DNA from: Ischnura elegans
Lineage: Eukaryota > Arthropoda > Insecta > Odonata > Coenagrionidae
Reading direction: 5' to 3'
Assembly: GCF_921293095.1 (NCBI RefSeq)
Contig: NC_060258.1
Coordinates: 1,178,001-1,242,000, forward strand
Length of the DNA: 64,000 nt
The translations under genes and the position numbers were made by a program. Of the stretch, positions 22,147-62,876 are shown one piece after another (the first letter of the stretch is position 1; every line of letters begins with the position of its first letter). The notes under the pieces are model-generated. The model saw only the letters and a list, made by a program, of their open reading frames with translations. It was not told the DNA's origin and made no database searches.

Positions 22147-22269
22147 CTGAACAGCAGAGGCATGTGGCATCAGGTCATTACTGGCCCAATCAGTGCAGTC
22201 ATATTCTTCTTCATCGTCACCGCTCTTATCCATCTTTACTGAAGTGGACGTGTATGTTCCCCTGCCACT
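22147..22269 (-). CDS. ZAD gene (minus), exon 6 of the visible gene
   Basis: A 41-codon exon between TTCTCTTTCTATTAG and GTGTGA. It reads SGRGTYTSTSVKMDKSGDDE and matches the 43-codon exon at 52133-52261 (SGMGTNGSPSVKADQSSDDE). The donor is weaker than in the other exons. If it is not used, the product ends in V followed by TGA. Confidence 0.65.
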
Positions 22270-25200
22270 CTAATAGAAAGAGAATTGCAATTCAAGTGAT
22301 AAACATTTTCACCAATTTGCACAAGAAACAAAACTGATCACAACCGAAACATGAATTACGGCGTGTCTGTAGAAATAAGAAATTACCTAATTCAGGAAAA
22401 CTATTCATACTGCATCAGGGAAGGTCAAATAAATTTTTGGCTAAAAATATAGTCCAATAGTCATTCTGCACTCACTTAACCAAACAGAACTTTACACAGT
22501 TATCACAAAATCCATACCTACAACAATCTGATTTTGGTGAACATGCATTGCAACCCCAGCATCCATTCCTCCCCACGATATAGGAAAGATGGCTGTGGTT
22601 CATTCGTTTTCGAAGATTAACATATTTTATACACCAGAACGCCTGGTCCAGGGTCATCAACTTTTATTTCATCCTATTTATTAATGGAAATTATATTTCG
22701 GAATGGTTCTTTAAGAACAAGGATACTGCGTAAGTAAACTCCCTTTGGTGTAAAGTGAATTGCAAGTGTTAGAGAAATATGGCATTTTATAATCTTTTTG
22801 TGTTCTTATTACGCCAACGTGTTGCTTTATTTTAAAGCCATCATTCCCTTTCCGAATAAGATTCCACTGGATTTTGGCAATTCCTCAAGTATTGCCGAGA
22901 TAAGTAATCGTACGCGGAAAAAAGGTTTAGTTGGAACTATCGAATTCTGATGAAATTTATCAAACTTTTCGGTCGTCATATGGCTCATTGAAAAATTTAG
23001 TAACAATTACCAACCCAGTTTGAGAAATTATATCAAACTGGTTTGGTAATTGATACCGAAATGGCCACAGCAGTTCGATAAAAACTATCAAAATCAAAAG
23101 ATAATAAAACCGACGTAGCGTGCACGGTGCGCGTGAAAGATTTTTCAATCCAGAAAACACTATTCTGATTTGAAATCATAAAATTAATAGTTTAAGGTAA
23201 GTTTATGCTAAAGAAATACAAAAAAAAGCTTACAAAAAATTAACCTTCAAGCAGAATCGAGCGTGGGCCCTCCGCGTGGTAGCGACGGGCGCTAAACACT
23301 GGGCTAAATCGGTTACAGTAATTATGCCATACACAAACGCAATAATATTTTATTAATGTAAATAATCAACCTTTGCGTTGAAATGTGAATAAGATGTGAC
23401 TAAACTTTCCCTTTCTAAGCTTAAGAGGAATACTTGATGCACACAATTGCATTACGTAGTTACTCCATATCCATTTCTAGTGCAGATGCGCAAGAAAACT
23501 TTATTTGTAGGCTTTTTACATCGATGTAGAGATGATTTTAACGAGCTGGGTGATGGATTGAGTTTAGTATGACGACTTTTATCACATGTCATTCAACATG
23601 ATCGCGAATGATTATGCCTCAGGAATACTTCTAATTAAGGATTTAATGTGTCGAAATACACAAACATCTCCTTACAGCTTTAATATCCATGATAATACGC
23701 TATTCAATCATTGCCTTTGATGCACCGGCTTACGGATAACATTGCAATGTAAAGCAGAAATAAACAGAAAAATGAACGTAAACAAAATTAAAACGTTATC
23801 GCCATCACAAATAATAAAAACAAAATCATTTCTACCATCCTATCTTTTATGTAAGGCCTGTTAAAAAATCTTTAAAGTGATGAAATGGTTGTGAAGTGGA
23901 TGTGAAGGTTGGGGCAGACCAACCTACGCTGGTGAGGAGTCCTTCACCAGCAAAGTGCGCTGAAGAAGACCTTCGGACGTCTCTCGAACTGAAATCTATC
24001 CTTTAGGAGCCGAGGAAGATCCCAATTTCACTCATGCATTCATGCATTTCCATGCCATTTTTGAAATTAATGCAGCTCTAACCTGCACAATTCAGTGCGC
24101 CCTGTAAAACGGCCTCAAGTATTGCTGGGAATGCTCCACAGGGGAATGGATTTGCATCATAAAAAAAACTGTGCTAAACAAGGAAAGAGTGCTGACTCAC
24201 CAACTCATCAATAGCCAATGGGTGTATGGCATCACTTTCAATTCCATCAGGAGCTGTCCCATAAAGCACTTCACCATTCTCTTCCCTTAAGGGATCCATG
24301 TTCTCCTCTTTTACATGAAACTAGAAGAGAATGCTGTGTATGTCACTCCACAACATACAATTAATAACAATAGTGATAAAAATAAAACCTCCTCATTCAT
24401 CACAGAATACTAATCCTGGTCAAATGCAACTATGCCTGAGATCTTTGTGACCAACTTCAATGAAATTTCTGACATGATAGCTCCTTTCTCTCCAACTGAG
24501 CCAAGGAGACCTCGTAGCATGGTTGAATGCTCCCATTCTGTTTATAATACTAAATCACTCATTGTAAGCAATTTTTTCACGAAAGACAAAGCCCTGCAAT
24601 ACTTGATCACATTTGATCAAGTGAGGGAAGAGTTTGTGTTTTTTTGCTCAGTCACACCAGGAGTGCTCAACTGAGGAATGGAATTGCATCATAAATTAAC
24701 TGTGCTCAACAGATTCCGTGCCAACCGTTTTTTGGAGAAAACGCCCTAGGGCTGACTTCATGGCAAAATTTTGTATTTTTATGGTATTTTAACGACGTGA
24801 TCTTATGATTTGTGATACCTGATACATTTTTTCACACTTTTTTTCCAAAAATAACCCTTTTATTTAGTAAAAATTTTAAATTAAAATTTTCTAAGTATCC
24901 TGTCCAACTTTTGATACCTTCCCGCAACACACCTACATGATTCCTTTATTTCTTTGCTCTTTGTCAGTACTGTATCGAAAACCCGTTCAGACTTAATCAC
25001 TTTCTGGAAAAAATAATGAAAATATTAATGCAGCAAAATATTAATTTTTTATCTGGAAATGAAACATTTAAATACGATTTTAAATGATTCATTGCTCTAA
25101 AGAAAATATTGGGAGTATTACCAATATTTCCAGCAAAAGTGTTGCTCCCAATGAAGGAAGTATTATACTGAACAATATGATATCCACTGGGTTAGATTTT

Positions 25201-28200
25201 ATAATGATATACGAATTGGTTTATAAAGGAAAAGGAAAATTTGTATAAACAAAGAATTATTGCAATGAAACATATTGTTTTACAAATCAGAAATTGGCCA
25301 GCATAATTTGAATACTTTTTCATTTACTAACTACTATGCATTACATTAAATCATTTTAAATACACATTTAAATAGGAAATATAAAAAAATAATTTTCCCC
25401 GCTTGGTAAATAATTTTCTGCATAACAAATTCCTGTGACGCTTCTGGAAACAGTCAAGACACAATCGAGGCTCAGGGTGGGGCTATATTATGATGTATCT
25501 TGGTGGTCATTCTTCTTGTAGCACTACCTACATCTCTTCTGTTTTCGTATTTTCTGTCTTTCCTGTTTTTCAGATAATCGGGGAAATGATAAGTCCTTCG
25601 TTTCGGATGAGGCAGGCTAGGATGACTACCTCCTGAAAGGGGACGAAGGTACAGATACTGTCATAAGAGATTCTATAATTTGAATAATGAAGTTGATGAG
25701 GGTGATTTTCCAAAAATTTTCATTGAATAAAAAATAACGGTTCAGCAACAGTAATTTGGTTATTATTGCAAGCATACCAGCAAATAATCATAGTGACAAA
25801 AAAACTTTTTGCCATGATGAAATCAAAGGAAATGAAATTCACTTGGAATCTTTAAAGGTTCAAGAAAGGAAGCATTTATTATTTATCATAAGGAATGAAT
25901 AACACACACCAGGAGTATGCCAGATATTAGGCAACCAGCCAAGCAATTAACCACCATAGCGTTAATTGACAATAAAAATTAAAATAACAACAAGGGAAAA
26001 ATATTTCCATTCCTTCCTGTAAAATCAATTAAATATTCACATGCAAATCATTGCGTAAAAAGGCATAAAGAAAGATTAAATACCTCGTAATAAAGTACCT
26101 TACCTATCTTCATCAACTGCAAAAGAACCTTTTTTTTATTTCCCTTTGAATAATTGTTAAAGTTTTTTTTTAATGTATAAGAACAATCGTGGGAATATTT
26201 TACTGTTTTCTGCATTATAAAATGAAAGTAATAATGAAATAGGTTGTAAAAACCCACCCCCGATGACGTCCTTGCAGAGCAAAACTGGGTAAAATAGAAA
26301 AAATCTAAAAAACAATTTTTCGAAGCTTTCAGCACGGCAAATAGGTAAAGAGTGGAGAATGACCCTCACCCATACCTTAACACCATTGGCTGGTGCTCAG
26401 GGCGGAAAATAAAGCAAAAGGGAATCATGACATAACCTTACGTCATCAGCCACTTGGTAGTGGCTGCCATGATGTAGATGTTGCGTCATGAGCACCGAAT
26501 GTGTAAACAAGGAAAGAGTGTTCACTTACCAAGTCATCAGTTGCCAAAGGGTCCATTGCATCACTTTCAATTCCATCTGGAGTTGTTTCATGCAGCATTT
26601 GATTATTCTCCTCTCTTTGAGATTCATTATTCTCCACTTTTACATGACACTGGAAAAGAATGCAGCACAACACTCAATAAATTCCTAATATTAATTACAT
26701 ATTTTAAATAATATTTAATATAGTACAAATACGTCTGTCCTCAACAGACTCATAACATCAAAACCTTTATCCATAAGAACCAAACTTTAAATGTATGAAA
26801 CCACAATTACACTGACCCTTCTGTATAGAGCTGAATCAAGGCTCATCGAAAAAAGAACAGAAAAAAAGTTTATTATGTACCTTTTAAAATGAAGTTTTTA
26901 GAACAGCTTTTTTCGACCCAGAAGAGAAAATTAAAACTGAAAAATAAAAAACAACAGGGAACTCAGGGATCAATTCAACTTGCCAAATATAGTTGCTGAA
27001 ACTTAAAGAGCTGCAGATTGTGATGGGCAGGGCAATTCCAAGACAGATAGAGGCCCTAGCAAAAAAGACTGGGAAGAAACCCCTGATGGAAGACAACCTC
27101 CAGGAAGACCAAAAAAAGGATGGAAGGATGAGGTGCTGATTGATACGGGGAGAATGGGAGTCCGCAAGGAGGAGGCAGAAGATAGAAAGAATTGGAGGCA
27201 GACAGTTGGTGAGGCTAAACACCATTTTGGGTATAAATGGCCATGGGAGAAAGTAGGTATTAGTACACCCAGTAATTGTCTCCAAACCAGGGGTTAAATG
27301 TTCGAATGCCACCTTCTGTCTGTAAAGAAATGCAAGAGAGCCAAGTTTGAGGGCCTTTATCATGTAAATGAGGCAATAAATTTCAACGCAACAAATAGAA
27401 TATTAAAGACAACCAATTTCTTCATTGGATTATTCATTTAAAAAAATTTCCACCCCATAGTATTTCCTGTACTTATATTTTTCCAAATATGTACCCATTA
27501 TTAGCGTGTAAAATCAAGTTGCTAAAATTTGAGCTTCATATATCCCCGTACTTTTCATTCCAATAACTAGGAATTTTTACGTAAAAAAGCCAGATCTATT
27601 CTCAACATTTTTTAGATTATAAATTTTTTCTATCACATAAATTGATGGATGTTTCAAACAACAAAAATCTCTGCTAACTTCCCAACCATTTGACCAACTG
27701 AAAATTTATTGGTACTGTTGTTTGCCGTGGAATGTAAATAATGCAAGAATTTAGATCATACACATTAAATGGCAGCAGCATATTTAATACCGTTTGATAT
27801 TTATGCTTTTTTTCTGCTCCAGTTGTCAGTTTTGCTCTGCCTTGTGAGGAAGGCCAAACCAAAACAACAGAAAAGTGAAAGACTCTCAAAGTTGTGCACA
27901 GTTGCCATATCGTGCAGTTCGATGCATTGTACCCTGGTAGTATATGAATCGCCCACTTGTTGCCTAGGCCGAGTTGTTGGCAACCACGAACCTCATGTCT
28001 CTTCCCTCTCCCACGGCAGAGCTGCCAGTATACGTGTAGAAACATTTAGATAAATATTTAGCAACACTGACTCAGCAATATTCAATGTAAATGTTATCAA
28101 CAGTAGTATTAAAATCATCGTACAGCATACAGCAGTACCAATCAATTTTCATTTGATCCATTGGCTTTGAATTGAGCAAGGCTTTGCATTGTTTACAAGA

Positions 28201-31200
28201 AATCTATCAATTTCTGTAGTGCAAACATTTTTTTACAGCAAATGGTCAACCAAATATCTGGCTTTCTTGTATAAAATTCAAAGTTACTGGAATGAAAACT
28301 GTGGGAATACCAAGTTCTCACAGTTGGCAACTTGATTTTACACACAAAAAACAGGTACTATTTTTAGAAAAAAATAAGTACAGGAAAAACCATGGCCAGG
28401 ATAGAATTTTTGAAGTAAATTATCCAACATAAAAATAAATTCTCTGTTGCATGTTCTTGGGTCATTTAAATTGATTACCTCGTTTAGATGATATAGCCCA
28501 TCAAACACTGGTATCTTGGTTTTTTTTCAAACAGCAGGTGGGTTCCTGTGTGTGGATGTATATTTGAGGGCACCGACTGCATCGTCATCATTTCGTGCTG
28601 CTAAAACTAGTTTTTAAATAAGGATGAAGTTATTTTTGTCACAATTATCTCAAAATAAAGGTTTTCTGGCTGACATAATCCATCATGATGGGAGCTAGCC
28701 AGTTCATATTGCATTTTGTTACTGGGGTAGACTATGAGCTGATAAAACAATACTGCATGTCTTGAAAACTCTGCAGGCATGTCAGATTCCATTTTTTGAT
28801 GTGGGGGTACATATGTATGATGAAGCTGTTTACTTCTTGGTTCCATTTCATGCATGCATGCTATCAGTAATCTTTTGTGGCCTTCAGTAAGAGAGGATTC
28901 TCATAAGCACTTTCAAATGCTGGATCCATCATTGGCATTTGGTTGCTACTAAAAAGTCTGTATAGTATTACAATCTGGTATATTTGCAACCCCTGCAAAG
29001 ATGCTATTGTCACCCAACGGTGAATAGACACTCCTATAAAAGGTGTTCTCTTTAGGTCTACGGTCGGCAATTCTATTTTCCATGTACCCTCCAATCTTAA
29101 ACCTTAACTTATCTCTGGTTACAATCTCTAGAGTCCTCTGTCCTTAGTTATAAAAATTCCCCTTCCATCATCATTTTCAAATTTCCAGTAAGCCCTAGTA
29201 TCCATTTTATTTATTATTTATCATGTATTTACAAATAACCTAGAAAATATGTCTTAATTTTTCTCCATTACCCAATTTTTACTGTACTACAATCATACTC
29301 TTATTTTTATTGTTACAGCAGAAATGGATGGATGCATTTGTTTTTGAAAAACCCAGAGCATTAAGAAACTTCATGCCTTCATTCAGGTTTGCCAAGCATT
29401 TAATGGTCTGCCAATAGGGGACCTAACCAATCCTGTTTTGATACACCATTTGCCATGTAATTCCCATATTTTAAATGTTTAATATGCTTCTTCAAGCCTT
29501 AAAATAATGATATAGGCAATGAATGGAAACATTTGTATTAAAATGATTATATAACTATACGTAACTACTAAATAGAGTTTTATACTCGTACTTTATGTAT
29601 AACGGGAGTTGTTCAATTTCCCTTCTGGAGCTTGTTGGAGAATAAATATTCTTAACTCTCTTGATGCATATGATTGGCACATGTTTCAACATGAGTGGTT
29701 GCCAGCTTCCCCTGCTCTACTATTATCTTATAACGGTCCTCCTCTCTGAGATTGAGATATGGATGATAGATAAGAGTATTTTCAGTACTATTAGCAAAGA
29801 GACAACATAAAAGGTCCCAATTCCATTGCATACAAGCTTGACTGATGTTGTCATTTGAGGAGCATTGTAAACGGTTCACAGAAAATTCTGCAGCATGGAA
29901 AGGAGAGCAGAGAGTTCCATTCACTCATGATATTTGTAACAGAATAAACTCCAAATTACCTGTGCACAAATTTTGAGTTGTTGATGGACAGAATTTCAAC
30001 AAATCTAACATGAAATCGTTTTCTATAGTGAAGCTTAATGCTACTTGAACACTTAATTACCCTAATGCTATTTTTTCCTTCCAATCAGAAAATCAGGACA
30101 TGTTCACAAAAAAAATTGTGTCATCGAGTTTTAGTTCCTATTACAAATGAAATACACATAAATTGGGATGAGAAAAAATTCCCTTGGACTGTTGCAAATT
30201 AAACCATTGCTGGCTGACAGTGCAGATCACAATGCAGATTCCTAGAAAAATATTACCAAAGCTCATGGTACTAGGTGTTAGGCCCCCACGGTTTATCAAG
30301 GATGGCAGCACGCAGGAGAATAGACTTCAATGAACCCACAACTGGTTGAGAGTCTAATCAAATATTTTTCTTCTTAAAACAAAATCAGGGTCTCCCACCA
30401 AAATATTCTTTCCATCTAACATTTGTGACTACAACAGTCACCCCCACTGAATACTGCCGATATTGCCCCAAAAAGTACCATGGTAAGTTACAGATGTGTT
30501 TCAGACAGTATAATTTAAATTCTGTACACCATAGGATTAATTTAGTGTGGCTATTTCACAGCCATCCAGATCAATTAACCTTTATCATCCTTGCAGTCCA
30601 ATAATACCACATAATGTTTACATATAAGCCCTCCAGTCCCTTTCAGGACCAATGAGACACACTTCATTTAAAATCGGCTCATAATAAGTTTCATTGCACG
30701 AGAGTTAACTGGGGAGCCCCTTATATTTTAAACCAAGACCATTTAACATTGGCGGTATTGTGAACCTAAGATTGAATTGTGAGTAAATGGATAAGCATTT
30801 TACCTTCTATCATACAACTTAAGGTCGGAATGATAAAGAATACTCCCCAAAGAAATGCATATATACTTACGCTAGGAAAGCCTATTTTCATCATATAACG
30901 ATACATTAATATAACAAAAGCTAAAATAATGAATCTTCCGACACAGGTTTTACCGTATATGAGAATAAAACTTACCAAGATATTGGTTGTGGGCAGTTGG
31001 ATGTCTGGCACAGGGATGAATATTTCATTTGGTTGGACTGTGCATACTACCTCTGAAGTGCTTACAATCGCATCATGAACGCAGTCATTAGTTTCAGTAG
31101 AAGACCTCAAATTGTCTTGAACTGCCCCCTCTCCTCCAATACTCTGCAAAGAGAGTAACACTGATACAAAAACTCACCTAATTCAAAATCAACAAATAAG

Positions 31201-38800: not shown

Positions 38801-39105
38801 ATAGATTCCATGAGCTAAGGTACCAGCAATACCACAGAAAGTTAGGATGGCCTTAAGCAAAATTGAAGAAAATTTTATGTGAATTCAATTATTTATTATA
38901 CTTTTTGGATATTTTGAAAACACGATACAAGAAAGAGGTAGGTAGAGAGTACCAAGGTTATGAAGTTTATATGAGTGCTGATTATTACTTAAGTAATGGG
39001 TTTTTTACTCAGATCAGGGATACTAATGTAAACTTGGGAGGAAAGAAAAACATTTGTGATACACCACATAGAGAAGTGGCAGGTGGATAACATAAAGGAC
39101 TTTAA
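35842..39105. other. Region upstream of the minus ZAD gene
   Basis: The promoter of the minus ZAD gene should lie in the first part (about 35850-36700), but I see no clear TATA or initiator. Further right are only short open frames (37405, 37975, 38863) without motifs. Confidence 0.35.
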
Positions 39106-40215: not shown

Positions 40216-40378
40216 AATAAAAGGAAGTTTTATGGAGAAACCTGTTTCAAAAAAGGAATCTGAAGGGAATGTATGGGAACGGAGTTCCTATTTTATAGTT
40301 CGATAAGACTACCGAATAACATTGAGAAACGCTTAATTTCTCCTCATCGTTGTTTTCCTCGGTGGGACCATCGCCTTG

Positions 40379-40684
40379 TTAGTGTTTTCCATTACGCTTT
40401 ACAAGTTGAAAATTACGATAGAGCTCTAAAATGAAGTTAATAATGAACCAGCGGAATAGATAAATGTGCACCAATGTATTGGAGAGTGGTTCAAAAAACG
40501 ATATATATTGAATGAAAAAGAACACTACATACGGAAAATCCTCTGTACTGTGACGTGCAAATACGATACTTAATAAATCCATAGATGTTAAGGAAAAATA
40601 TAGCAGAAGATGGAGCAAAATAGCCATATAACGCTCGTTGCGATCTAATCTAGCAACATACTTTATCACCAATGTGTCCGCCAT
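40379..40684 (-). CDS. Small multi-pass membrane protein, unrecognised
   Basis: A 101-codon minus-strand ORF begins CCAAGATGGCGGAC, a good animal start context. It encodes a polar N-terminus (MADTLVIKYVARLDRNERY) and then two or three hydrophobic segments (about residues 20-42, 52-70 and 72-90), with a basic C-terminus NFQLVKRNGKH. The base composition is typical of coding DNA in this window. It may be a whole small gene or the first exon of a longer one (a donor-like CTT|GTAAAG lies near the 3' end). It lies between the divergent ZAD genes, and its 5' end faces the plus ZAD gene about 0.85 kb away, so they may share a promoter region. I cannot name it. Confidence 0.45.
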   Translation of the reverse strand: MADTLVIKYVARLDRNERYMAILLHLLLYFSLTSMDLLSIVFARHSTEDFPYVVFFFIQYISFFEPLSNTLVHIYLFRWFIINFILELYRNFQLVKRNGKH

Positions 40685-47700: not shown

Positions 47701-50700
47701 TGAGCACTATTGACTTAGGTACGCTGAATAAGATTGATCGTGACATCATGATGTAGCTGCTAGCAAGATTCAACCACATATCTCTCATTCCATATGAGAG
47801 ATTAATGGTTACAGGAATCAGGTTGTTGCCAATTTGGGTTTAGTGATGAAAGCAAACAGGAATTTATTGTGGGGATAAGAGAAACATCCTTCTTTGCCAT
47901 TTTTAAATTGGATGTTGCATGTTGGCAGTATAGGTCAATTGCTAAAAGACATCAATTGTTTGTGACACGATCTCATTTTTATTAACTTTGAATCCATTTT
48001 CTTCAATTTGAGTGTTGGACATCAGCAATGAAAGTCAGTTCCCAAAAATATCAATTGTTAGTTAATTGTTAGTACTGTTTTGCTATGGCAATGTCATTTT
48101 GAAGTGGAATATCACTACACCTCAGCAGAACCAACAGCATTTTTTTCTTGCCAGATCGTGAGAAACCATGAAAGGGCTTTCATGAAAGAATTATTGAAAG
48201 TGATTGATGCATTTTAATGAACAGATTTGGTGTATTTTGCCAAACTGACAGCTCAACATAGTTTACTGAGCCAGTGAGCTCTCTGCCATCCCTTCACTCA
48301 GCAGTCTTTAATTTTGTTATCATACAAACGCAGTTTTCACTTCCAATTATCTCGGAGCAGAAGGGGGGAAAGGAATTGAGAGTTATGCTTAGAACTATAG
48401 AATTTAGAGCTCTCTAATAGATTGGCAATGGCATTATTATGCAGCTGCTAGCAAGATCTGACAACAAAACTCGTTCCACATGAGAGATTGATATTCACAG
48501 GAATCAGATTGCTTCAAAATGGATTTTGTGATGAAAGTGAGCAAGAATTTATAACCAGTGCTAGGCAATTAAGTTCGATTGCCAAATGATTTCAATTGTT
48601 GGTGACATGAAGTGTTTTTGATTAAATTTTACTCAATTTTTTTCTGCTGTTATTCAAAGTTTTGAAAAATTTGCAACTATTTTTTATTGTAAGGTAATAT
48701 TATTCTTAGATTTTAAGAAATATTTTTTCTAGAAGAATTCAAGTTTTTAAATCATTGCCATTATAATGTTAAACGTCGAATCATTTTGGAAATAATTATA
48801 ATGATTTTGAACAAATTGGGTGGCTGCAAGTAGAAGAAAAGCTTTAATTATCAAAGGAGGTTATTATTGTTTTGCCTTGTTATGTGGAAATGAGGTTATT
48901 ATTGTTTGGTTTTTACTGACACCCATTGTTCAATTCTAGTGTCACGCGAAAGAGGAGAGCCAAGATCACCTCAGTGAGGAGAATTATCCTGTGCTCTACA
49001 CATCCGATCCAGCTGGAATTTCAAATTATATATCAAACCCATTGGCAACTGATGAATTGGTGAGTTAAGTCTTGCCTTGTATGTTCTTTTTTCTAAGAGC
49101 ACAATGTCATTACGTGACAGAATATTCACAAAACCACTCAGCAGATACCTACAGCATTTTCCCTCACCTGATCAGTCATTTACAAATACAGAAGAGCCTT
49201 AATGAATAATTATTTAAAATGAGTGACTCATTGTACAATGTTATGTAATGAACAGATTTGGTGTATTTTGCCAAATGACAGTAAATTTTGCTCATGGGGC
49301 AAGTGAGCTCTGTAACATCAGGGCACTGAGGAGTTATATTTTTTGTGATCATGCAAACACAGTTTTCTTTTCTGTTCACCTCGAAGGATAAGGGGGCTAG
49401 GGAATTGAGAGTATTACTGAGTTCTGTTGAATTTGGTACTCTAACAGAATGACCATGACATCATGATGCAGCTGCCATCCAGATCCGACAGCAAAATGAG
49501 TCCCTAATGAGAGATTTGTTATTCACAGGAATCAGGTTGTGCAGATTGGGACTTTGCGATGAAACCTGAGCAGGCATTTATTATGTGGACTAGGGATTTG
49601 CCCCTCTTACCATATTTGAATGGGGTGTTGGATGTTGGCAGTACAAGTCGATTGCCAAAACACATCAATTGTTAGTGACGTGAACTGATTTATATTTACT
49701 TCATAACAACTAAACACTCTTTAAACAGGGAGCAGGCAAAATTAAATGGCACTGAAAATTGTAAGTACGGATTAAGAGTTATCACGTTCCAACAATTTTT
49801 AGAGATTACATATAATTTGTAAAATTGTGCGGAGATCGATTACGGTGCTAAAAATATTTCAAATAGTTTCAGCACAAAAGCTTCAATGCCTCCGAAATAA
49901 AAGCACCCTGGGTGATATAAATACCTATGATTAAAGACCTGTATAGGAACTGAATAGTGAGGATGTCTGCTGCATTGTGAACACTTTAGGGGTTAAGGAG
50001 ACCATTTCATGGTGGAATTCTGGAAATTTTTTCTACCTTAAACTAGGTACACAGATAGTGAGGATGTTACTCCACTCCAATGCAAATTTTGAGAAAGCAC
50101 CTAGCACTCTGAACCAATGGCCATGCTGTGGACATTATTGAAAACAATTTACCTATAATGCATTTCCCATCATCATCATCATCACTGATCAATAATCTTA
50201 AGATTGGTTTCATGCACGTCTACACTCAATTCTCTTATCAGCTTAAATTTTCACCGTAATGCACTATGAATGACCTTTTAAATCAAGCTCCTACATGATG
50301 GAATATTTTCTCCTTCATGTTGCCTCTTAGACTATGAAGCAGCAAATACTCACTGCATTGGTAGCATCCAAGTCACACTCTCATTATTGGTGTAAGGATT
50401 GTAGTTGAAGGCAGATTATATCACTATGATGATCGCAACATCCATCTAGTGTCTCACTGGTAACATAGTAATGTGTCACATGACTTGAATGCGATGAAAC
50501 GGTTAAATATAATGATACATTGCAAAACAATTTCTTCTCAGCCTCCCTGATATTTAAATTTTCCACCTCACATCATACATGTGTCTGAAATGGACCTTGC
50601 TAGGTACCCACTCTGTAGTAATACTTAGGCTTTTCAGGCTTTTCAGGCTTTACCAGAAAAACAACACCTTTATGCTAACTGTCTCAAATGTGAGTGAGTA

Positions 50701-53700
50701 AGCTTAAGACTGTGTAGGGGAAATTATACGGGGCCTCAGGATTTGTCCTTTACCATCTTTGGAAAGGGTATTGGATGTTGGCAAACCAGGTTGGTTGTTG
50801 TGAGGTGTACATTTTTTGATGGAGCTTGTTGTGTGCATACACATAGTGGGATACACGACTCAAATATTAGGGGAAATGAAAAACTAGTTATACCTCACCA
50901 CTGGATAGTCAGAGTCAATAAATCATTCATTTTTACAGCATGTCACAATTGGAACAACATTGACTCTCTCGAAAAAGGCCATTTGGGCTTACAGCCCTAC
51001 AGGTCTCTCTCCATTCCACCGACATTTCAGAGCACGAGTTGGCTTCCATCCTCAGGGCTAATAGGATGACAATGGAACCAAAGTCGTGTTCCGAAGCATC
51101 GGCAGAATGGAGGGAGACCACCAGGCTGAAAGCCCAAATTGCCTTTTTGAACGTATTCACCGGGAAAGCATCAGACTTAAAATTGACTTGCCCCCACGTA
51201 AATTGTCATAACCTGACTCCTTCAAAAAGGCACTACACCGAAAACTTCTTTGAGAACAACAACGAGAGAGGTAGCATCGTGGGATCAGAAGGAAAGCTTC
51301 CACATCTATCTCTTCCAGCTTCATTTAATTTTATTTTTCTTTCCATGTACTGGGTATTATTTCCTTGTAATTTCTTATATTTTTTGATACCCAGGTTTAC
51401 ATTACCTCTTTCTCGGCAGGTTTTCCAAGATTTCTCACGCCCCCTTCTTGTGTGGGTATTTTCCTGCTGTGGGTTTTTTTTCCAAAAAGGGCGATAGTCA
51501 ATATCCTCAGGTTTTTCCCACGTTTGTTTTCATTTTTTTTCACTTGGTAAATGGTTACTTTGTTGACTTACAATTTTGTTTGATGTTTGAAAATGGAACT
51601 TCTATGTCTCTTTTGTAATTTCTCTACCTGTATTTTCATGAGCTACATGACTATATATTGAACTGCATAAATTTCATGCTTGATGAGGGGTTATATGGAA
51701 GATGGGACCTCCTAGTCCAAATCTCATATTATTATTATTGCGTCCAACTCTGATTGAATTTAAATAAAATTATTACCTTTAACAGATGAAATTGACATTT
51801 TTGTACTCCTTCTGCTTGTGTAAACAAAGATTCTTGGTTGTCCATGAAGGATGTCATGAGACCATCATGTCTCAAAATATTGCTGATAAATTTGTTCTTC
51901 CCTCTTTGGAAGGTTTTTCTATGGCTAATTGAAATGACAAATTTGCGTAATGGGCCAGATTTTGTTAGTCAATAAATTTATCCTTCCTGCTTCTCAGATC
52001 ACAGAATAGATTTGCTGGGAATTTTTGATTTATGCATGCACCTGTAATTCATGTTTTGGTTGTGATCTTTTTGCTCCTCCTACCAATTGGTGAAAACCCG
52101 TATCAATGTAGTGTTAATTCTCTTTCTCTCAGAGTGGCATGGGAACAAATGGGTCCCCTTCTGTAAAAGCAGATCAGAGCAGTGACGATGAAGGACGAGA
52201 TGTGCACATTGATAGCACTGGTGGGACCACAAATGAACTCGTGCCCCAACCCTCTGATCAGGTAATAATTATATTTTTATTGGTCGAGTGATTTGCTTGT
52301 ATAAATATAGGACATGTCAAGGAGTGAGTAAGATAAAAAAGCGTACAAGTTAAGAAAGAAAAAAAATTAGAATGAAGAAATTAGTGCATAGTATAAAAAA
52401 GTGTTTCAAAGTAAACTCATTAATCTTGCACTTGAAGAGGGATGTGGTCTTTACTCACCTTACTTCCTGTGGAAACATATTAAGTAACAAGAGGCCCATG
52501 TGCCTAGGGACATAACTCATTTTTTTGTTCTTTAAATGTTTTGTGGAGGCTTGAAACGTTACTAGTTTATTAACAATGATAATTGTCATTGGTTGCATAA
52601 TTATAAATATAATTTTTTGCCCAAGCAATTGCAGCATGCATGAACATATAGGGGTGAGGAAATATAGTCAATTTTTGAACTAGAGGGTGACATGGTGTGT
52701 AAGAAGGCATTTTACCTCAGAGCTGCAGTATCCTCTTTTGAATTTTGAAATTTTTTTATAACTGGGTCTAGGGCTCCAAAAGAGGATATTAATCATCTCA
52801 TGCAAGTAGAATTCACCATAACAAGTCGGCAATAATACATTAATATCTACAATTTTTCTGATAGAATCAAAAAACAAGTACAGTAGGACCACGATTTATC
52901 GTTCCTGCATTCATCGTTTTCCCGCATTCATCGTTTGGAGATCGTGCTCCCGTCGAATAATTTTCCCCCATTCATCGTTTGATAAAAATTAGACGAAGTG
53001 TTTACAACGTGTTATTTATGGGTAATAACAACAGACACATAGTTTGAATCTTCCCCAGGATATTGAAATGCGATAGGGAGAAGCAGAGTGCCGTGGGATA
53101 GTTACATTAGCACATTTCCCAAGATACGGTATCCCCCTCCATTCAGCACTCGCCTCCTTTCGTTGAAGCTTTCTTCTTCTCCGAAATAAAAAAAGGTCCC
53201 AGCTCGAGCAGGGATCGTATAACGACGACCTTAGCTTCAAAAGAAAGAAAATATCAAGTTACTCGAGAACAAAAGAAACCTTTTTCACGCCTCCCCCTCT
53301 CTCGACCGCTGACTTTTTTTAGCCGATTCCCTTTAAAGGTGGAGGTCAACTGCTGCATGAATCAGCATTTAGCGCAAAAGGTATCTAAAAATGAATTTCG
53401 GCAATTGGTATTATACTTTCATTATATTGAGATATTAGTGATGTGCACGTAATTCAGTAAAGATTGATACTAAGCACGATGTATTTCTAACGTTATTTAA
53501 GCATTATAACTGGGAAATAGTTGGAAAAATACGATGGTGATTTCTGGCGAATAGCGATATCCTTGCAGCTGATAGTAAGCTTCACGGCAGTTGATGCGAT
53601 TTTTTTTCGAAAACAGGTCGTCTGGTTACAATTTACGAGTTATGCTACAGGTTTCACATGTCTGAGTTGCTAATGAAAAGATGTCTTCTCAGGATATTTT

Positions 53701-56700: not shown

Positions 56701-59700
56701 TCCAGAGAACCACAAGAAGTGAAGATTCTTGTTTCATTTTTTATTATTTTCTTGGTGTCATTTGTTTTGGGTAAATGTGATTGATTTTGGTTTCTTTTCA
56801 CTGGCCAGTATTGTGGGAGTTGAAGAAATAAACACTTTGCTATTTCTTTATAGTGGCTTATTGTGACGACAAACTTGCAAGCCTCCTCTCACAACAGCTG
56901 TTACAACATATTTGCATGCTAGTTTGTTTCAAAATTTTGAATCTATTGCCAAGTATCCCAAGAAAGTACATAGCACATTTAGTGGAAATCACCCTAATCA
57001 AGTCAGATACACTGCATCCACTGATAAGTGAAGTTTGTTAACTCCTGAAATTGCACACAAATTAACAGTTTTTTATTCATTGGCAGGCATAAGAAACAAT
57101 TAGATAGCGTAGCTATGGGGTCACCTTTGTCCCCGGCCATAGTTAAAATTTATATGGATTATTTTGATAAACTTAAGTTCTCTATTATAGCTCCCTATTT
57201 CAAAAAGCATAAAATGATATCGATATGAAGACTAATGCAATGCAAGACAGCTAATGCAATTTCTGAGAGTGCTCAATGCACAGGATAAATACATATGTGA
57301 ATAAATAAATACAATTTTTGGTATGGAAGTCAAGAAGGAGGCATACAATAAAGTGTAATGGGTGTAGGCCACAGACTCAATTGGAATACGTTTCCACTGC
57401 TGTTTATCATTTTTATCATTATGAAAGGATGGAAAATCAGATTTCTTTACATTTGCTGTCATCCATAGAGAATACATATTTTATCATAAACATTATTGAT
57501 TTTCTTTATGTTTACATGGAAAATATGAACTAATATGCGAGTTTATATGGTTTAAGAATTTGTTGTATCTTATCACCTGCTAAGATAGTTCCAATTCCCT
57601 GTCCATTCATATTTTGATGCTTACTTTCAGCCTACTTTTATGGAGAATGGAGAGCTGATTCAGAAACAGACAATGGCCATGGAGTCTATGACGGAGGCAT
57701 TGGGTAAGTGCTCTTAAGTGCTTGAAAATGACTTCACAGAAAAGACTTGTAACTTTATCTGATTAGGCAAATTTCCCAACACTGGATCGCAGAATTCAGT
57801 CAAATTTTGCGATCCTTGCATGAAATTTTTTCTTACTTTCATTCTACTTTCTATTTTACAAGAAGCCTGTTATTTGTCTATATTTCCATAAATTTCACTG
57901 AAAATTTTATTTTTATGCCTGGATCGACACTGAGTCCTCTGGGTGACAACTGGACACCTTAAGCACTAGACTTATGCTCACCCTTTGCAGAGTGGCTCTT
58001 ATACATTAATGCATTTCACCTGCAAATGTTTTTCTGGATTTGTATTTTAAAATATTGGTGATACATATAACCCTATATGGGGGATGACTCGAGGACAACT
58101 CGCAATGGACTATAACAACAAAATTTGGTTGAACTCTTAGACAAGGTTATTGGACACTCCACTTGTGAAGGATGTAGCATCTGAATTTGTCATCCTTCTA
58201 TACTTTCTTTCTTCGTGTAAACAGTTCCGCTGGATAATTTAATCAGGTCGGCAAATGTCTAGTAAATTTTTCCTGTTTCAGTGAAATAAAGCAATATTGG
58301 GGGTCGTGTGTATTCCTATGGGAACTCCCCCATACTTTACCTAACAATTTTGTTTTTAACCCTTTGGTTGGGGGCAGAAATTTCCTTATGTCTCACCTGG
58401 TGGGGAGCAAATCCACCGATTTTTGGAGATGCCGTTTTCGAAAAAAAATTATAGTAAAGCTATTGCACAAAAATGGCAGTATACTTAAAATATATTAGTA
58501 TAGAACCTCTGACAAAGCAAAAAACATGCAATGATGCATAAAGAATGTTCACGCCTTCTCCACAAAACATTGCGACGCGACGGCACGCGCGACTATAGTC
58601 GCGCTCCCCACCTGGGGTGCGGAGTCCGCTTGCGACTATAGTCGCTCTCCCCAGTTAAGGGGTTAAGATTGGTTAGTAGAAAATAATTACCAAAAAATCA
58701 CTTGTGAAGAATACGAAGCATGAAATTTCAACTTCCACATCAATTGTGTGGTATCAATATACAAAGTTAACATGAAACTTGTAGAAATGAGGACAAAAGG
58801 GTAGGTTCAGTTTTGAAATAATGGGAAAATGTTGCTTTCATACATATCCCATTCAAGTAACCCTGTTGTGGTCATTGAAACTGCTTTATTAGTTCAAAAA
58901 CATATTCCTGGAAGTATTGAAATATAAAAGAAAACTGATTTTGCTAACTATAGGCTAAACTCAATGTCAATACCTTGTGTGCAGAAGTTATGGTTCTGCA
59001 GAGTTATGACGTGAGCAACCAGACAATACTTACTTACATGCTTACTTATTGTTCTTAACTAACATAAGATTTCAAGGTTATATTTTCATTCACATTTTTA
59101 AGGTGGTACAATGAAGTACAGTACATGATCCTCATTGAGGGTGAATATGAGAAGTTTGAAGATTTTGGATGTAATTTTACTTATAACTGCTTGGTATATT
59201 TTTTCATTATGATGCTATAGTGCCATTTTGTACATTGCTTTATATTTTAAATACCTTGGATTTAGTGAAAATATATTCAGGTCATATTAAAAATGAAAAT
59301 AATATCTTGAATTGTGATAATTTCAGGAGAAAATTGATAAACTATAATGGAAGAGTTAGGTATTTGGAAATTAAATACTAGTCGCCCACTGGTAATCAGG
59401 AATATTTGCCATTTTTACCTTTCTCAAATGAAGTCTATAAATCAATTAAGTGAGGAAATGCAGAAGATATTCTAACAGACTTACTCATGAATCAGGCATT
59501 TAGGGTTAGTGCAGGCTATACCTAATTTATGGTGAATTCAACCCTGCCAGTGAAAAAGAACTATTTTAGGTCGCCCTAGGATGGAGCTGGGAAGTAATGT
59601 GGTTTGAATGCGTTACGAGTTGTACAGTTTGCCGATTAAATTCCTGTTTGCATGCAAAGCCTTTTATGAAAATGGTGGGAGCATTGTTCAAACACGACAA

Positions 59701-62700
59701 GCTTTTTGTCATTTTAACATTATCCATAACTGGTGTGTTCTGATGGAAACCAATCCATCCTGAACCATCCAGACTCTCAAACAAAGACTTGCAGAAAGAG
59801 ATAGGGGCGGCACCGTTAGGGCACATTCAAAGAGAGAATCAGAACTCTTTCCACTCTTCTTAAATGGGGAGTGCATTAACTGAAGCTATAATTTCAAGTT
59901 TTGAATCGAGATTTGATACCATCCATGAATTTCGATCTGAGATATCTGATGAAGAGCAATATCCACGTATATTTGGATATGAGGCATTGAATCTACCATC
60001 ATTAATGTTAACCTATGTATGAAATATTCAACTACTCTCATTGTTGTCCTTGGTTATGCGGGGAAAATTTTGAAATTTTTTGAATATATTGTGACAGAGC
60101 ACAACGTGACATACAAGTTTTGGAGGAAGATAATCATGATCGTCTCGAGTAAAGGAATATTGAAGTCAAACAAACTATCACTCTCTGTTAAACATAGAGA
60201 ATATATTTTACCCTTCATGAATTGTTACATTCTTCACAAAACAAAACAAAAAAATAATACGCTGATATGAATGATATTGTTGAAATGACCCCACTTCACA
60301 GCAAAGAAAATAATGATGATGATGAAAAACGGGATGCTTCCCCCCCTCAAAAATAGTGCAATTTACAAAAACCTTCCAATATGAATTATTTGGGCCACTA
60401 TCAACTTGTATCCCTGGATAGTTTTTGAACTTGGCTTTTCTGAGCTCTTCTTAAAGTTATTTGAAAGGACGAGATGCACTTGTAGAAAACAATTTCTCTC
60501 TTCTGATTAGGGAAAGTGAACGGTCGTCTGACCTTAAACAGATGATATAAGAGTCGCGACTGCGTCTTTCGTACAGTTTTCTGTTGCAGCTGGAATGGAA
60601 GAATGGTTTGTAGCACAATGATGTGGATCAGATGATCCACGGCACCGAGGTAAACTCCTCTCGCACCGGGCGCGGGACACTGCCGTAACTCGTCCGGGCT
60701 GATGTCAGCATTGGCCACCGAGAGTACTCCGCTTCCAGGCTTTGATGGCAATCACGCACATCAAATACTTTCCCCCTTAGTCGTCCAGTCAATCATGCTC
60801 CTCATGCATGCCTTTCATGGGCATTTATACCCCTCGGGAGGGGAAAAATCACAGGTGGAATGGTTTGTGGGGAGGGAGGGTGATTCCACTGCGGCCGGAA
60901 ATAAGTGGGTCTCTAGTTGGTCCTAGATGACTGAGGCCAACACACCGGCCACCACACACACCTGACTCACTCATCCTCACGCATTCACCCATGGCAGGAC
61001 GCTATGCCCGACTCCAAGACTATCCCCTGCTCGAGTCGTCACGCTAATGTGAGCAATTATGAAAGAAAATGCCCAATCGGCTTATAAAACAAAAATTACA
61101 TTCTGTACGGTACGCTACAATATGTTATCCTTGAAGGTAAGATCTTATATTATAATGTATTTTTGCCCATTTATCTTTCTGTCAATGGTTTATTAAGCTG
61201 GCAATGATTTTTTTGCGAGCTATAATTACCCTCTGGCTCCTGTAGTTCCTGTCCACATGTATTCTGCATATGTTAAGCCTTGCACTTAAAGGATGTTCAT
61301 ATTTGCATTTAATAAGAATGATGATTGTTTCAATTCAACATTATGTGTGTGCATGCAATTTGTAATTTGACTTAATGATTACTTATGTGCGTGAAATAGT
61401 GCACTGGGGTGTTTTCTAGAGTAGATATTTGAGGTTAGTGTGTAATACCTTGCTGAATTTCTCTGAGCAGCAGTGCCACTCAATTTGTGAAGAGAGATTT
61501 GGAATCAGTGTAAAAAAAATTACGTGACACATTTGTTATGTGCATGGTATCAAACCAAAAGATCGGTTGAAGGGGTAACTTTGATAAATGACTAATGGCT
61601 ATTATAAATTAGCTCAACGAATCATAGATTACATGTCTGACTTTACTTATTTTGAATGTGAAATTCTTTTCCAGATCTCCCTGCTCAAGAAACAGCAGCC
61701 GCTTTGTTTGGATTCCTTGAACCAAAAATTATATCATCACATTCAAGGAAAGGATGGAAGGTGATGGATAAAGACATTAAAAAATATGGTACAGGGGTTG
61801 CTGATAAAATAACTTCGTGCTCAATTCCTGATGATGGACAGTTTCATTCAAAATCTAGGCGTGTGTCTAAAATCAGAGGAGATAAAGAAACAATGACTGT
61901 TACTGGGGAAACAAGTGGTTGTGATAATCCAGACACCATAAAGTTTTTTAAAGTCACTAACAGTGGGAATAGTGGCCATGAGGCAGTCATGTGGGAAAAC
62001 AAAAAGATAAGTGCTGGCATGATCAAAAATACTGGGAAGCGTTCCAAATCAAAGGACAATTCTTATGTTTGCTTCAACTGTGGAGATGCATTCAATGCCA
62101 AATATGATCTTATCAAGCACCTCAAAATTCATTTAGGTTCAGACAATTTGGATATTGACGCAGATTTGTCAATCGGAAAAAATATGTCCCTCAAAACCCT
62201 TGTTTCAAAAAGAAAAACTGATAGTTCCCATCAGCCCACCTCCTCCAAGAGTTTAAATAAGCTCATATGTAAAAGACAAGAGGTGAGACAAGAAGGAAAT
62301 GGGCTATTTAAGCCAAACTTTGGAGGAACAACGGAGAAGAAAAATGTGAGGGAATTGAGGAGAAGCTCCATTGTAGATGGGAAATCAGGCACATACAGTC
62401 CACACACAGCAAAGAAACCTTATTACTGCAGTGAATGTGAAAAGTCTTTCTCTCAAAAGAGTAACCTTGTCCGTCACATTCGGACTCATACGAAGGAGAA
62501 ACCTTATTCCTGCAATGAATGTGAAAAGTCATTCTCTCGAAAGAGTCACCTTATCGATCACATTCGGACTCATACGAAGGAGACACCTTATTCCTGCAGT
62601 GAATGTGAAAAGTCTTTCTGTCAAAAGGCTGTCCTTATCCGTCATATTCGGACTCATACGAAAGAGAAACTTTATTCCTGCGGTGAATGTGAAAAGTCTT

Positions 62701-62876
62701 TCTCTCAAAAGAGTCACCTTGTCTCTCACATTCGGACTCATACGAAGGAGACACCTTATTCCTGCAGTGAATGTGAAAAGTCTTTCTCTCAAAAGGGTAC
62801 CCTTGTCCGTCACATTCGGACTCATACGAGTGAGGAACCTTATTCCTGCGGTGAATGTGAAAAGCCTTTCTCTTGA
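41538..62876 (+). CDS. ZAD-C2H2 zinc-finger transcription factor gene (about ten exons)
   Basis: Exons 41538-41705, 41833-41970, (42288-42476), 46345-46512, 47238-47354, 48940-49059, 52133-52261, 55538-55666, 57631-57703 and 61675-62876 keep one frame across GT-AG introns. All introns are phase 0 except the last (phase 1). The product is about 747 residues, or 810 with the uncertain third exon. The N-terminal ZAD (CRLC at 21-24, CPLC at 68-71) mediates dimerisation in this family. An acidic, serine-rich linker follows. The C-terminus has one isolated C2H2 finger and an array of five complete fingers (ECEKSFSQKS, HIRTHTKEKPYSC linkers), followed by a TGA inside the next finger. It is expected to act in the nucleus as a sequence-specific regulator. 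The target is unknown. A paralogue lies head to head at 35841-22147. Confidence 0.85.
41833..41970 (+). CDS. ZAD-C2H2 gene, exon 2: second half of ZAD
   Basis: A 46-codon exon after TTAACCACTCAG. It reads IAVGDGLPATMCPLCLKKL and then EFSVFKKTC, the second zinc-ligand pair and last helix of the ZAD. The donor is AGG|GTGAGT. Confidence 0.85.
42288..42476 (+). CDS. ZAD-C2H2 gene, uncertain exon 3
   Basis: Between TTAATCTACAATTGTAG and GTAAGT, 63 codons stay open in phase 0, beginning GYVRPSKMVYGKVIIVLFPI and ending ECVLNNDIL. The donor and phase fit the rest of the gene. The polypyrimidine tract is weak, and no matching exon exists in the minus-strand paralogue, so it may be a species-specific or alternative exon, or chance. 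Confidence 0.4.
42477..43416 (+). other. Intron of the plus ZAD gene
   Basis: AT-rich. At about 43140-43262 a block of about 63 bp (TTTAAATAT-ACCTT-GTATAAA...AAAGGTTA-CTGT) occurs twice in tandem. Otherwise empty. Confidence 0.45.
43417..44209. repeat. Inverted repeat pair with 160-bp arms, possible 0.8-kb MITE
   Basis: The left arm (43417-43576) starts GAGCTGTATTACGTATCTCC. The reverse complement of the right arm (44051-44209) starts GGGGCTGTATTCTGTATCTC. Both continue with CCAAAC-GATC-GTG-GGCACCGAT..., GATTCTGTA-GAA and GATCATCG. Identity is roughly 70%. The arms enclose about 470 bp of AT-rich DNA. The outward ends could be the termini of one non-autonomous element. I found no clear target-site duplication. 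Confidence 0.65.
44210..44794 (+). other. Intron of the plus ZAD gene
   Basis: AT-rich and T-rich. No feature seen. Confidence 0.4.
44795..45460 (-). mobile_element. Internally deleted mariner-family transposon
   Basis: On the minus strand the remnant starts MPNFEPINHHL at 45460. It continues MISFFHSEKTGDEVHQE and DWYHCFKHSNSNDDDRPCEG, then RPKAFNET: the mariner N-terminal HTH and GRP linker. It then jumps to LADSPGIALSDYYLSHSMVH, LHPREYNEKWLHS and SKDEHFN, and ends SDDGQLL near 44795. The second block is the end of the catalytic domain with the third acidic residue (SDY). The middle, with the first two catalytic Asp, is gone (junction about 45010-45130). In-frame stops are present. Terminal repeats were not identified. 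Confidence 0.75.
45461..46344 (+). other. Intron of the plus ZAD gene
   Basis: The first part (to about 45650) may be the 5' untranslated part of the mariner copy. The rest shows nothing. Confidence 0.35.
46345..46512 (+). CDS. ZAD-C2H2 gene, linker exon 4
   Basis: A 56-codon exon between TACTTTGTCTGCAG and GTAAGT. It includes SFEGGGADDEESEPCVETKD, then EIYIPVPDCLLPRGDKL. It has the same length and core as the paralogous exon at 30976-31143. Confidence 0.8.
46980..47004 (+). repeat. Tigger-type terminal repeat fragment
   Basis: CGCTGGGACCTCAATCTATC, followed by GTTCCC, closely matches the termini of the elements at 7336 and 52881 (CAGTGGAACC-C-AT-TATCGTT). A TA precedes it. It is only a solo end in an intron. 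Confidence 0.45.
47238..47354 (+). CDS. ZAD-C2H2 gene, acidic module copy 1
   Basis: A 39-codon exon between TTATCCTCTTCTAG and GTGAGT. It includes IHVKDENEGQLNENYPMLYT and ends DPLAIDDL. It is a tandem paralogue of 48940-49059, lying in a duplicated exon-plus-intron unit. Confidence 0.8.
47355..49690 (+). repeat. Triplicated exon-plus-intron unit
   Basis: Three diverged copies of about 600 bp run from about 47355, 48077 and 49060. Each carries, in order, CAATGTCATT, GTATTTTGCCAAA (47541, 48232, 49263), GATCATRCAAACACAGTTT, GCAGCTGC, AGGAATCAG and a GTTGGCAGTA...CAATTG end. Copies 1 and 3 follow an acidic-module exon. Copy 2 has no exon in front of it. An extra end-piece lies at about 48035, and another at about 50755 (TATTGGATGTTGGC). 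Confidence 0.7.
48940..49059 (+). CDS. ZAD-C2H2 gene, acidic module copy 2
   Basis: A 40-codon exon between GTTCAATTCTAG and GTGAGT. It includes CHAKEESQDHLSEENYPVLY and ends NPLATDEL. It shares NYPxLYTSDPA with copy 1 of the same gene, but its first residue and PLATD ending match copy 1 of the minus gene. Confidence 0.8.
49691..50971 (+). other. Intron of the plus ZAD gene
   Basis: Contains a short CATCATCATC microsatellite near 50167, a triple TTTTCAGGC run near 50633, and the extra end-piece of the triplicated unit near 50755. No exon is recognised. Confidence 0.4.
50972..51148. repeat. 177-bp foldback hairpin with 77-bp arms
   Basis: AAAAAGGCCATTTGGGCTTA (50972) pairs with AAGCCCAAATTGCCTTTTT at the right end. 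ATTCCACCGACATTTCAGAG pairs with TTCCGAAGCATCGGCAGAAT. The arms 50972-51049 and 51072-51148 are about 80% complementary, with a 22-nt loop. Each arm contains a GGATG...GAAAT/GAAGC-GTCGG pattern common in tails of arthropod retroelements, so this may be two inverted copies of one such tail. Confidence 0.65.
51149..52132 (+). other. Intron of the plus ZAD gene, possible retroelement tail
   Basis: The T-rich sequence ends in GATGGGACCTCCTAGTCCAA and a TATTATTATTATTG microsatellite at about 51727, which resembles the 3' end of a non-LTR retroelement. No coding trace was found. Confidence 0.3.
52133..52261 (+). CDS. ZAD-C2H2 gene, linker exon 7
   Basis: A 43-codon exon between TTCTCTTTCTCTCAG and GTAATA. 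It includes SGMGTNGSPSVKADQSSDDE and ends LVPQPSDQ. It matches the last visible exon of the minus gene. Confidence 0.75.
52262..52880 (+). other. Intron of the plus ZAD gene
   Basis: No feature seen up to the transposon terminus. Confidence 0.45.
52881..54486 (+). mobile_element. Tigger/pogo-like element, both ends present, non-autonomous
   Basis: The element starts CAGTAGGACCACGATTTATC and ends with the inverse of CAGTGGAACCTCAATCTGTC. It is flanked by TA on both sides (52879-52880 and 54487-54488), as expected for this superfamily. Length is 1606 bp. Near both ends the phrase GCATTCATCGTTTT is repeated, three times on the left and twice on the right in the same orientation, which may be transposase-binding repeats. 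No intact transposase was found. It is a full-length relative of the truncated copy at 7336 and sits in an intron. Confidence 0.8.
54489..55537 (+). other. Intron of the plus ZAD gene
   Basis: AT-rich. No element or exon is recognised. Confidence 0.45.
55538..55666 (+). CDS. ZAD-C2H2 gene, linker exon 8
   Basis: A 43-codon exon between GGACACATATGCAG and GTATAC. It includes AQASASSQWGEVDAEERGAI and then KKESPKETDTTE. It is in phase 0 on both sides. No counterpart is visible in the minus gene. Confidence 0.65.
55667..56949 (+). other. Intron of the plus ZAD gene
   Basis: CT-rich tracts lie at 55930-56170, and the GC-richer block 56170-56580 holds the opposite-strand exon candidate. No other feature. 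Confidence 0.4.
56199..56298 (-). other. Candidate first coding exon on the opposite strand
   Basis: On the minus strand ATG 56298-56296 begins MPSAVQRRLRPHKKSRVNVS, then SGADICPGLQRTE, and runs to a strong donor AGAGG|GTAAGT at 56199. The upstream 280 bp is GC-richer than the intron around it. It reads like a genuine short exon, either of a gene nested in the intron or brought in by a mobile element. No second exon or homologue was identified. Confidence 0.25.
56950..57230 (+). mobile_element. Penelope-like element fragment (reverse transcriptase)
   Basis: The plus strand contains SVAMGSPLSPAIVKIYMDYF at about 57105-57165. This is the hallmark block of Penelope-like reverse transcriptases (DGVAMGSPLSPxxAxxFM). 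Weaker similarity extends to its left. It is a short, broken relic, so probably old, with no endonuclease region or terminal repeats seen. It lies in the intron between exons 8 and 9. Confidence 0.6.
57631..57703 (+). CDS. ZAD-C2H2 gene, short exon 9
   Basis: A 73-nt exon between GATGCTTACTTTCAG and GTAAGT. It reads PTFMENGELIQKQTMAMESM and then TEAL plus one base (phase 1). The phase fits the acceptor of the finger exon, where G + AT makes Asp. Confidence 0.65.
57704..58355 (+). other. Intron of the plus ZAD gene
   Basis: No feature seen before the piggyBac-type MITE. Confidence 0.45.
58360..58662. mobile_element. piggyBac-type MITE, 303 bp
   Basis: TTAA at 58356-58359 and 58663-58666 flanks CCCTTTGGTTGGGGGC on the left and the inverse of CCCCTTAACTGGGGAG on the right, the layout of piggyBac elements (TTAA target, C-rich start). 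Near the right end the palindrome GCGACTATAGTCGC occurs twice, separated by a CCCCACCTGGGG palindrome. There is no coding capacity. The GC-rich end contrasts sharply with the intron. Confidence 0.8.
58667..60539 (+). other. Intron of the plus ZAD gene
   Basis: The minus-strand open frame 59566-59826 (ending HSNHITSQLHPRAT) is less AT-rich than its surroundings and may be a transposon relic, but I cannot classify it. Nothing else. Confidence 0.3.
60540..61040. other. GC-rich island inside the last intron
   Basis: About 500 bp of markedly higher GC and CpG content, with ACTGCCGTAACTCGTCCGGG and CTCGGGAGGGGAAAAATCAC. A minus-strand open frame of 116 codons (60401-60751) crosses it. It may be an inserted retroelement 5' part, an alternative promoter or a first exon. 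There is no diagnostic motif. Confidence 0.3.
61041..61674 (+). other. Intron of the plus ZAD gene
   Basis: No feature seen up to the acceptor of the finger exon. Confidence 0.5.
61675..62876 (+). CDS. ZAD-C2H2 gene, terminal exon with zinc fingers
   Basis: After AAATTCTTTTCCAG the exon starts DLPAQETAAALFGF and continues through a basic, lysine-rich spacer. Finger 1 is isolated (62070-62132, CFNC...H...H). Array fingers have their first Cys at 62427, 62511, 62595, 62679 and 62763, an exact 84-nt period (C-x2-C-x12-H-x3-H with HTKEKPY-type linkers). A sixth array finger starts at 62847 but ends at TGA 62874-62876 after CGECEKPFS. Sister fingers have CGA (Arg) at this point, so the stop looks like a CpG transition. 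The overlapping frames show long shadow ORFs caused by the repeat. Confidence 0.9.

Follow-up and report, generated by a model that had tools for sequence, protein, structure and literature searches.

Insect ZAD-ZNF (C2H2-ZAD) transcription factors are the closest described counterparts of two genes that lie head to head in the genome of the odonate Ischnura elegans, within a 64,000-nt stretch of contig NC_060258.1 (here C13, positions 1178001-1242000; this stretch is referred to as the window, and coordinates are window positions unless a contig is named). Both genes resemble these factors in their N-terminal ZAD with two cysteine pairs, their linker exons and their many duplicates, and the gene on the plus strand also in its tandem C2H2 fingers. 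The locus differs from them in the fingerless gene on the minus strand, in copy number and concentration on five contigs, and in its organization as head-to-head units. ZAD proteins without a C2H2 domain have been described in Drosophila, namely dlip, dbr, CG15435, CG31109 and CG31457 in the available text of PMC7655104. Judged by domain content, these are like the minus gene in having a ZAD without fingers, but each of them is an individual named gene in a different insect, whereas here about 15 loci share one type of sixth exon (E6). A comparable case is SCAND1, a zinc-fingerless SCAN protein proposed, in the accessible part of PMC6627353, to limit fingered SCAN zinc-finger proteins. Like the minus gene, it has the protein-interaction domain of its zinc-finger family and lacks fingers, but that domain is unrelated to the ZAD. 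No literature on ZAD genes in Odonata was found among the top matches of open-licence papers. We conclude that the minus gene is probably a recently 3'-truncated member of a very large ZAD zinc-finger family and arose through rapid duplication and loss (birth and death).

The minus gene and its missing 3' exons

Exons E1 to E6 of the minus gene (35841-22147; Table 1) join into one open frame of 279 codons, all in phase 0, which ends in valine and a stop codon (V-stop) if E6 is left unspliced. Its ZAD scores 50.1 bits against Pfam zf-AD (cut-off 28) and that of the plus gene 47.7 bits, each with both cysteine pairs present. The plus gene consists of eight exons with a joined frame open for 704 residues and six C2H2 fingers, and combines the ZAD and the tandem fingers of a ZAD-ZNF transcription factor. 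At gene level the minus gene has the features of a ZAD-only protein, a ZAD being present and C2H2 fingers absent; the C-terminal tandem fingers of a ZAD-ZNF factor are lacking in the gene and in the 82 kb downstream.

An earlier sequence-only reading of this DNA had described a six-exon match between the genes with equal lengths and phases, and both ZAD ligand pairs in the minus gene. This description holds, with 56, 46 and 56 codons for E1, E2 and E3 in both genes, and phase 0, AG acceptors and GT donors at all E1-E6 junctions. The same reading had miscounted the exons of the plus gene, in which E7 had been missed. Without this exon the phase-0 end of E6 would meet the phase-1 start of E8, and a direct splice from E6 to the finger exon was ruled out for that reason. 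Its AG/GT borders and frame are kept in all three fetched relatives that cover it, and it is recognisable at two further, more distant loci. The two ZADs of the pair have the same residue at 47 of 73 positions and dS, the synonymous divergence, is 0.57 over E1-E2; the genes are not recent copies of each other, each having much closer relatives elsewhere.

The missing 3' end was sought in the 82.1 kb left of minus E6, comprising 22 kb of the window and 60 kb fetched beyond it. Scanning 154 kb (the window, 60 kb to its left and 30 kb to its right) for the C2H2 pattern yielded no minus-strand finger array; the sole minus-strand match (17523-17597) is lone and chance-like, and the six C2H2 fingers in the scan all belong to the plus gene. 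A tblastn search with the whole E8 protein against both strands of the 82.1 kb gave a best match of E = 0.074, on the opposite strand, while the same query recovered the plus finger array as a positive control. A counterpart of E7 was likewise not found in the 82.1 kb. The earlier claim that the strand of the minus gene has no finger exon to the left is upheld over these 82.1 kb by pattern scan and tblastn alike.

A sequence switch in intron 6 and related, apparently fingerless loci

E6 and its flanks from 14 other places were aligned with the window copy. The sequence CAG/GTGTGAAC at the end of E6 is kept in all 12 close copies (the window and 11 others), and CAG/GTGTGA reads as a splice donor because the site matches the donor of the plus gene and the flanking intron is conserved. 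A designed end of the gene at the stop after E6 was ruled out, as CAG/GTGTGA occupies the plus-donor position and the adjoining intron sequence is co-conserved; the sequence-only reading was right that an unspliced E6 would run into a stop one codon later, but this stop belongs to the opening bases of intron 6. In L060-L062, three copies that are more distant, the donor GT is changed to AT as read from the alignment, and one of them also carries an in-frame TAA.

Past the donor the close copies fall into two sequence types, one shared by the window, C14:17659305 and C17:1946293 and another shared by the other nine of the 12. In the window, 31 nt of ancestral intron 6 are followed by the neighbourhood of an ankyrin-type gene. 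The 1,847 nt after E6 match C14 at 99% and C17 at 97% (best 40 of 2,783 candidates), and identity across the ankyrin-type gene is 99% to C14 and 95% to C17 (best 40 of 181 candidates). The same neighbourhood occurs at C17:3522740-3525836 with 90-95% identity and without a listed minus-type E6. Since the sequence switches 31 nt into the intron and this switch recurs elsewhere, intron 6 was cut and joined to the ankyrin-type neighbourhood, and the product later copied; more copies of the join may exist, because both DNA searches scored just 40 candidates. The continuation of the ancestral intron, represented by queries from eight of the nine copies, gave merely weak (65-75%) or very short matches in the 154 kb. 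An insertion displacing the 3' exons leftward was ruled out, since the 82 kb left of E6 lack the ancestral intron.

This rearrangement explains how the minus gene lost its 3' end. It swapped out everything beyond 31 nt after E6, taking E7 and the finger exon with it and orphaning the splice donor. Any transcript would then stop within the joined sequence and could encode a protein of 280 residues that has the ZAD and linker but no fingers for binding DNA. Under this model the minus gene would have no selected role.

Relatives were searched for in the whole genome (1,722,721,009 bases, 110 contigs) and assigned to genes beyond the window by position and strand, without transcripts. The minus-type E6 search scored all 115 of 115 candidates, and 15 of 49 matches (at least 72% identity) were used, comprising 12 copies of at least 85% identity, window included, and three of 72-74%. 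Of the plus-type E6 search (best 150 of 213 candidates), 113 of 150 matches were used (E up to 5.5e-5). The E7 search covered the best 150 of 208 candidates, two finger-linker searches the best 150 of 853 and the best 150 of 700, with 171 places pooled, and the E1 protein and E3 searches the best 150 of 1,231 and of 629, respectively. Among the matches listed, one of 15 minus-type E6 loci has an E7 no more than 25 kb downstream on its strand, versus 79 of 113 plus-type loci (Fisher p = 3e-6), so that lack of fingers seems to characterise the subfamily and not to be a one-off. The single loss implied by the sequence-only reading gives way to 14 of 15 loci at which no E7 is listed in the first 40 kb downstream. 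A listed finger linker is found within 25 kb of two of 15 minus-type versus 62 of 113 plus-type E6 (p = 0.0045). In 65 of the 79 plus-type loci with E7 listed within 25 kb, the two exons lie no more than 10 kb apart. Among 38 loci with a minus-like E3 (best matches, at least 66% identity), E7 is listed within 40 kb at seven. In the window the absence of fingers is direct, unlike at the other loci, where 3' ends that are divergent or unlisted could have escaped notice.

Selection and alternative explanations

Between the window copy and the nine nearest ones that were fetched, intron 1 differs by 1.7-6.0%, and the minus-type copies are young. Over E1, E2, E3 and E6, the ratio of non-synonymous to synonymous substitution rates (dN/dS) is 0.60 between the window copy and C14:17.64 Mb, 0.65 between the window copy and C14:1.58 Mb and 0.57 between the latter two; E3 alone gives 1.58 and 1.16 in two of the comparisons of the window gene with these relatives and the plus gene. 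Between the minus and plus genes, the comparison suggested by the sequence-only reading, dN/dS is 0.69 over E1-E3, with a bootstrap interval of 0.46-1.11 that spans 1, and 0.52 for E1-E2 and 1.16 for E3. Relaxed or weakly constrained evolution fits these values, and neutral evolution is also compatible.

Several observations weigh against a truncated gene without a role. Every frame and splice site of minus E1-E6 is intact, as the sequence-only reading had stated; as an argument this is weak, because intron 1 has diverged so little that a gene under no selection would also be expected to show few disabling changes. Ten copies, that of the window among them, show 15 distinct non-synonymous changes in E1-E2 and 11 distinct synonymous ones, at a ratio of sites of 242:64 (p = 0.011), which hints at purifying selection, the E1 part of this count being biased because the loci were picked as best E1 protein matches. 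E2 alone, which was not used for choosing loci, has 11 non-synonymous to 6 synonymous changes in a hand count. Candidate 3' parts also lie downstream of some minus-type E6 copies: C14:1595963+ is followed by E7 at 1615411 (19.4 kb) and a 17-finger E8 at 1616853 (20.9 kb), C14:15649489+ by a linker of 41% identity at 15.9 kb, and another copy by a 41% linker at 48.4 kb. Furthermore, at 34 of the 113 plus-type E6 the listed matches likewise include no E7 within 25 kb, and since the lists hold best matches, some absences of E7 or linker outside the window may be gaps in them.

The alternative that survives best, which we nevertheless regard as rather unlikely, is that the fingerless copies are functional ZAD-only regulators, expressed and selected, whose ZADs dimerise with near-identical fingered relatives and titrate them in a SCAND1-like manner. 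The recurrence of one E6 type at about 15 loci, 14 of them having no E7 listed in the 40 kb downstream, is consistent with such a role, as are the open E1-E2 and the four ZAD cysteines in all ten copies, the skew of E1-E2 changes towards synonymous ones, and the five fingerless Drosophila proteins named above. Fingered relatives of the same type exist as candidate partners, C14:16417556+ and C13:7344771- having E7 and linker downstream by position and E1 identities of 85% and 95% (best 150 of 1,231 candidates). However, the choice of loci biases the selection test for E1, dN/dS of the window gene (0.60-0.69) is not clearly below 1, and a 4.6-kb insert lies between the minus gene and most of the sequence that was ancestrally upstream of it. 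If a ZAD-only protein is made, the same-type fingered relatives would be likelier partners than the plus gene. Blocking of the head-to-head partner, as the sequence-only reading had envisaged, is unsupported, given the divergence of the two ZADs and a review (PMC5509000) according to which the ZADs of three fly proteins, Pita, ZIPIC and Zw5, form stable homodimers only. A sequence search of the PDB gave 7pok_A as best match, a weak one (E = 0.024).

Less probable again, and doubtful in our view, is a broader proposal in which an amplified fingerless ZAD subfamily, placed back to back with fingered genes over about 1 kb of shared upstream sequence, makes ZAD-only proteins that tune its fingered relatives; if true, it would be an insect counterpart of the SCAN-only proteins that evolves by copy number.

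It is improbable that the 3' exons are merely distant, divergent or misplaced in the assembly, with the donor CAG/GTGTGA still in use and the protein fingered. Retention of the donor in 12 of 12 close copies and the downstream E7 and E8 of C14:1595963+ agree with this explanation, but the 82 kb downstream of the window gene hold no fingers, plus-type E6 and E7 mostly lie within 10 kb of each other (the 65 of 79 listed cases above), and the breakpoint substitutes the ankyrin-type neighbourhood for intron 6. Very improbable is a ZAD-ankyrin fusion, in which the truncated gene would splice into the ankyrin-type gene 2.5-4 kb downstream: the shared strand, the 2.5-kb distance (open reading frames 19681-18890 and 18838-18326) and the duplication of the arrangement at C14:17.66 Mb and C17:1.95 Mb speak for it, but this ankyrin-type frame is in two pieces with its own ATG, and the ankyrin score of an intact sister copy falls under the Pfam cut-off.

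Head-to-head units, neighbouring features and family setting

Table 1. Exons of the two ZAD genes and other features of the window
Feature	Position	Strand	Description
Minus gene E1	35674-35841	-	ZAD first half; ATG at 35841; CRLC pair; 168 nt, 56 codons
Minus gene E2	35420-35557	-	ZAD second half; second Cys pair CALC; 138 nt, 46 codons
Minus gene E3	30976-31143	-	168 nt, 56 codons
Minus gene E4	26530-26649	-	120 nt, 40 codons
Minus gene E5	24201-24320	-	120 nt, 40 codons; internal duplicate of E4
Minus gene E6	22147-22269	-	123 nt; last homologous exon; donor CAG/GTGTGA; V-stop if unspliced
Retained ancestral intron 6	22116-22146	-	31 nt; homology to nine other copies stops at ~22116 (breakpoint)
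Joined segment, ankyrin-type gene neighbourhood	17300-22115	-	C14:17659428-17664268, 99%; C17:1946416-1950991, 95-97%, to window 17563
Inserted segment between the pair	36096-40738	.	~4.64 kb within shared upstream region
Plus gene E1	41538-41705	+	ZAD first half; 168 nt
Plus gene E2	41833-41970	+	ZAD second half; 138 nt
Plus gene E3	46345-46512	+	168 nt
Plus gene E4	47238-47354	+	117 nt
Plus gene E5	48940-49059	+	120 nt
Plus gene E6	52133-52261	+	129 nt; donor CAG/GTAATA
Plus gene E7	57631-57703	+	73 nt; phase 0 to 1; no counterpart found for minus gene
Plus gene E8	61675-62876	+	linker and six C2H2 fingers; stop 62874-62876

The head-to-head pair is an amplified unit: in seven of the nine other close copies fetched an open plus-type E1 begins 1,042-1,071 nt from the minus-type ATG. 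L039 keeps the upstream part alone, with no plus-type E1 partner, and at L045 (C13:1469453-) finger-array-like C2H2 sequence directly upstream of the ZAD E1 replaces the partner. The two ATGs of the window lie 5,696 nt apart because the inserted segment sits between them, and about 254 nt of ancestral upstream sequence still adjoin the minus gene. The pair may share a bidirectional promoter. Within the inserted segment, a 144-bp tandem repeat of 7.3 copies occupies 39120-40167. Each ZAD gene also has one long, imperfect, intronic palindrome (27309-28541 and 43414-44211, 64-65% self-complementary), perhaps a transposon remnant. Other head-to-head zf-AD matches lie about 1.6 kb apart on C14 (3535811-/3537429+, 8905652-/8907270+ and 4688918-/4690581+) and are perhaps another branch of the family.

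Behind the in-frame stop of the plus finger array (62874-63110) are decayed finger units with a KEALFLH tail at the end, which resembles the open-frame ends of the relatives L038 (KEALFLH), L035 and L036 (both KEASFLH). Direct repeats surround plus E4 and E5 (47183-49701), a third, middle copy (48066-48570) matching the intron part only. A 40-residue stretch at 57052-57171 (+), AMGSPLSP among its residues, has matches of 47.5% at two sites to the left of the window, and presumably resembles reverse transcriptase. The ankyrin-type gene of the joined segment (18339-20244, minus strand), split into the two frames given above, forms an inverted pair with a second copy (12419-14324, plus strand) at 69% DNA identity and has many relatives on C13, C14, C16 and C17 (best 40 of 181 candidates).

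By hand count, 134 of 146 zf-AD matches (best 150 of 900 candidates) lie on contigs C13-C17. Chromosome 13 of I. elegans consists of a main scaffold and several unlocalized scaffolds, and is home to the locus of the female colour morphs, where three zinc-finger genes are common to all morphs, according to the available text of PMC10781644; contigs C13-C17 are probably chromosome 13 plus its unlocalized pieces. With many ZAD genes on few contigs and one subfamily recurrently fingerless, the question whether such copies are debris or regulators becomes testable in this family.

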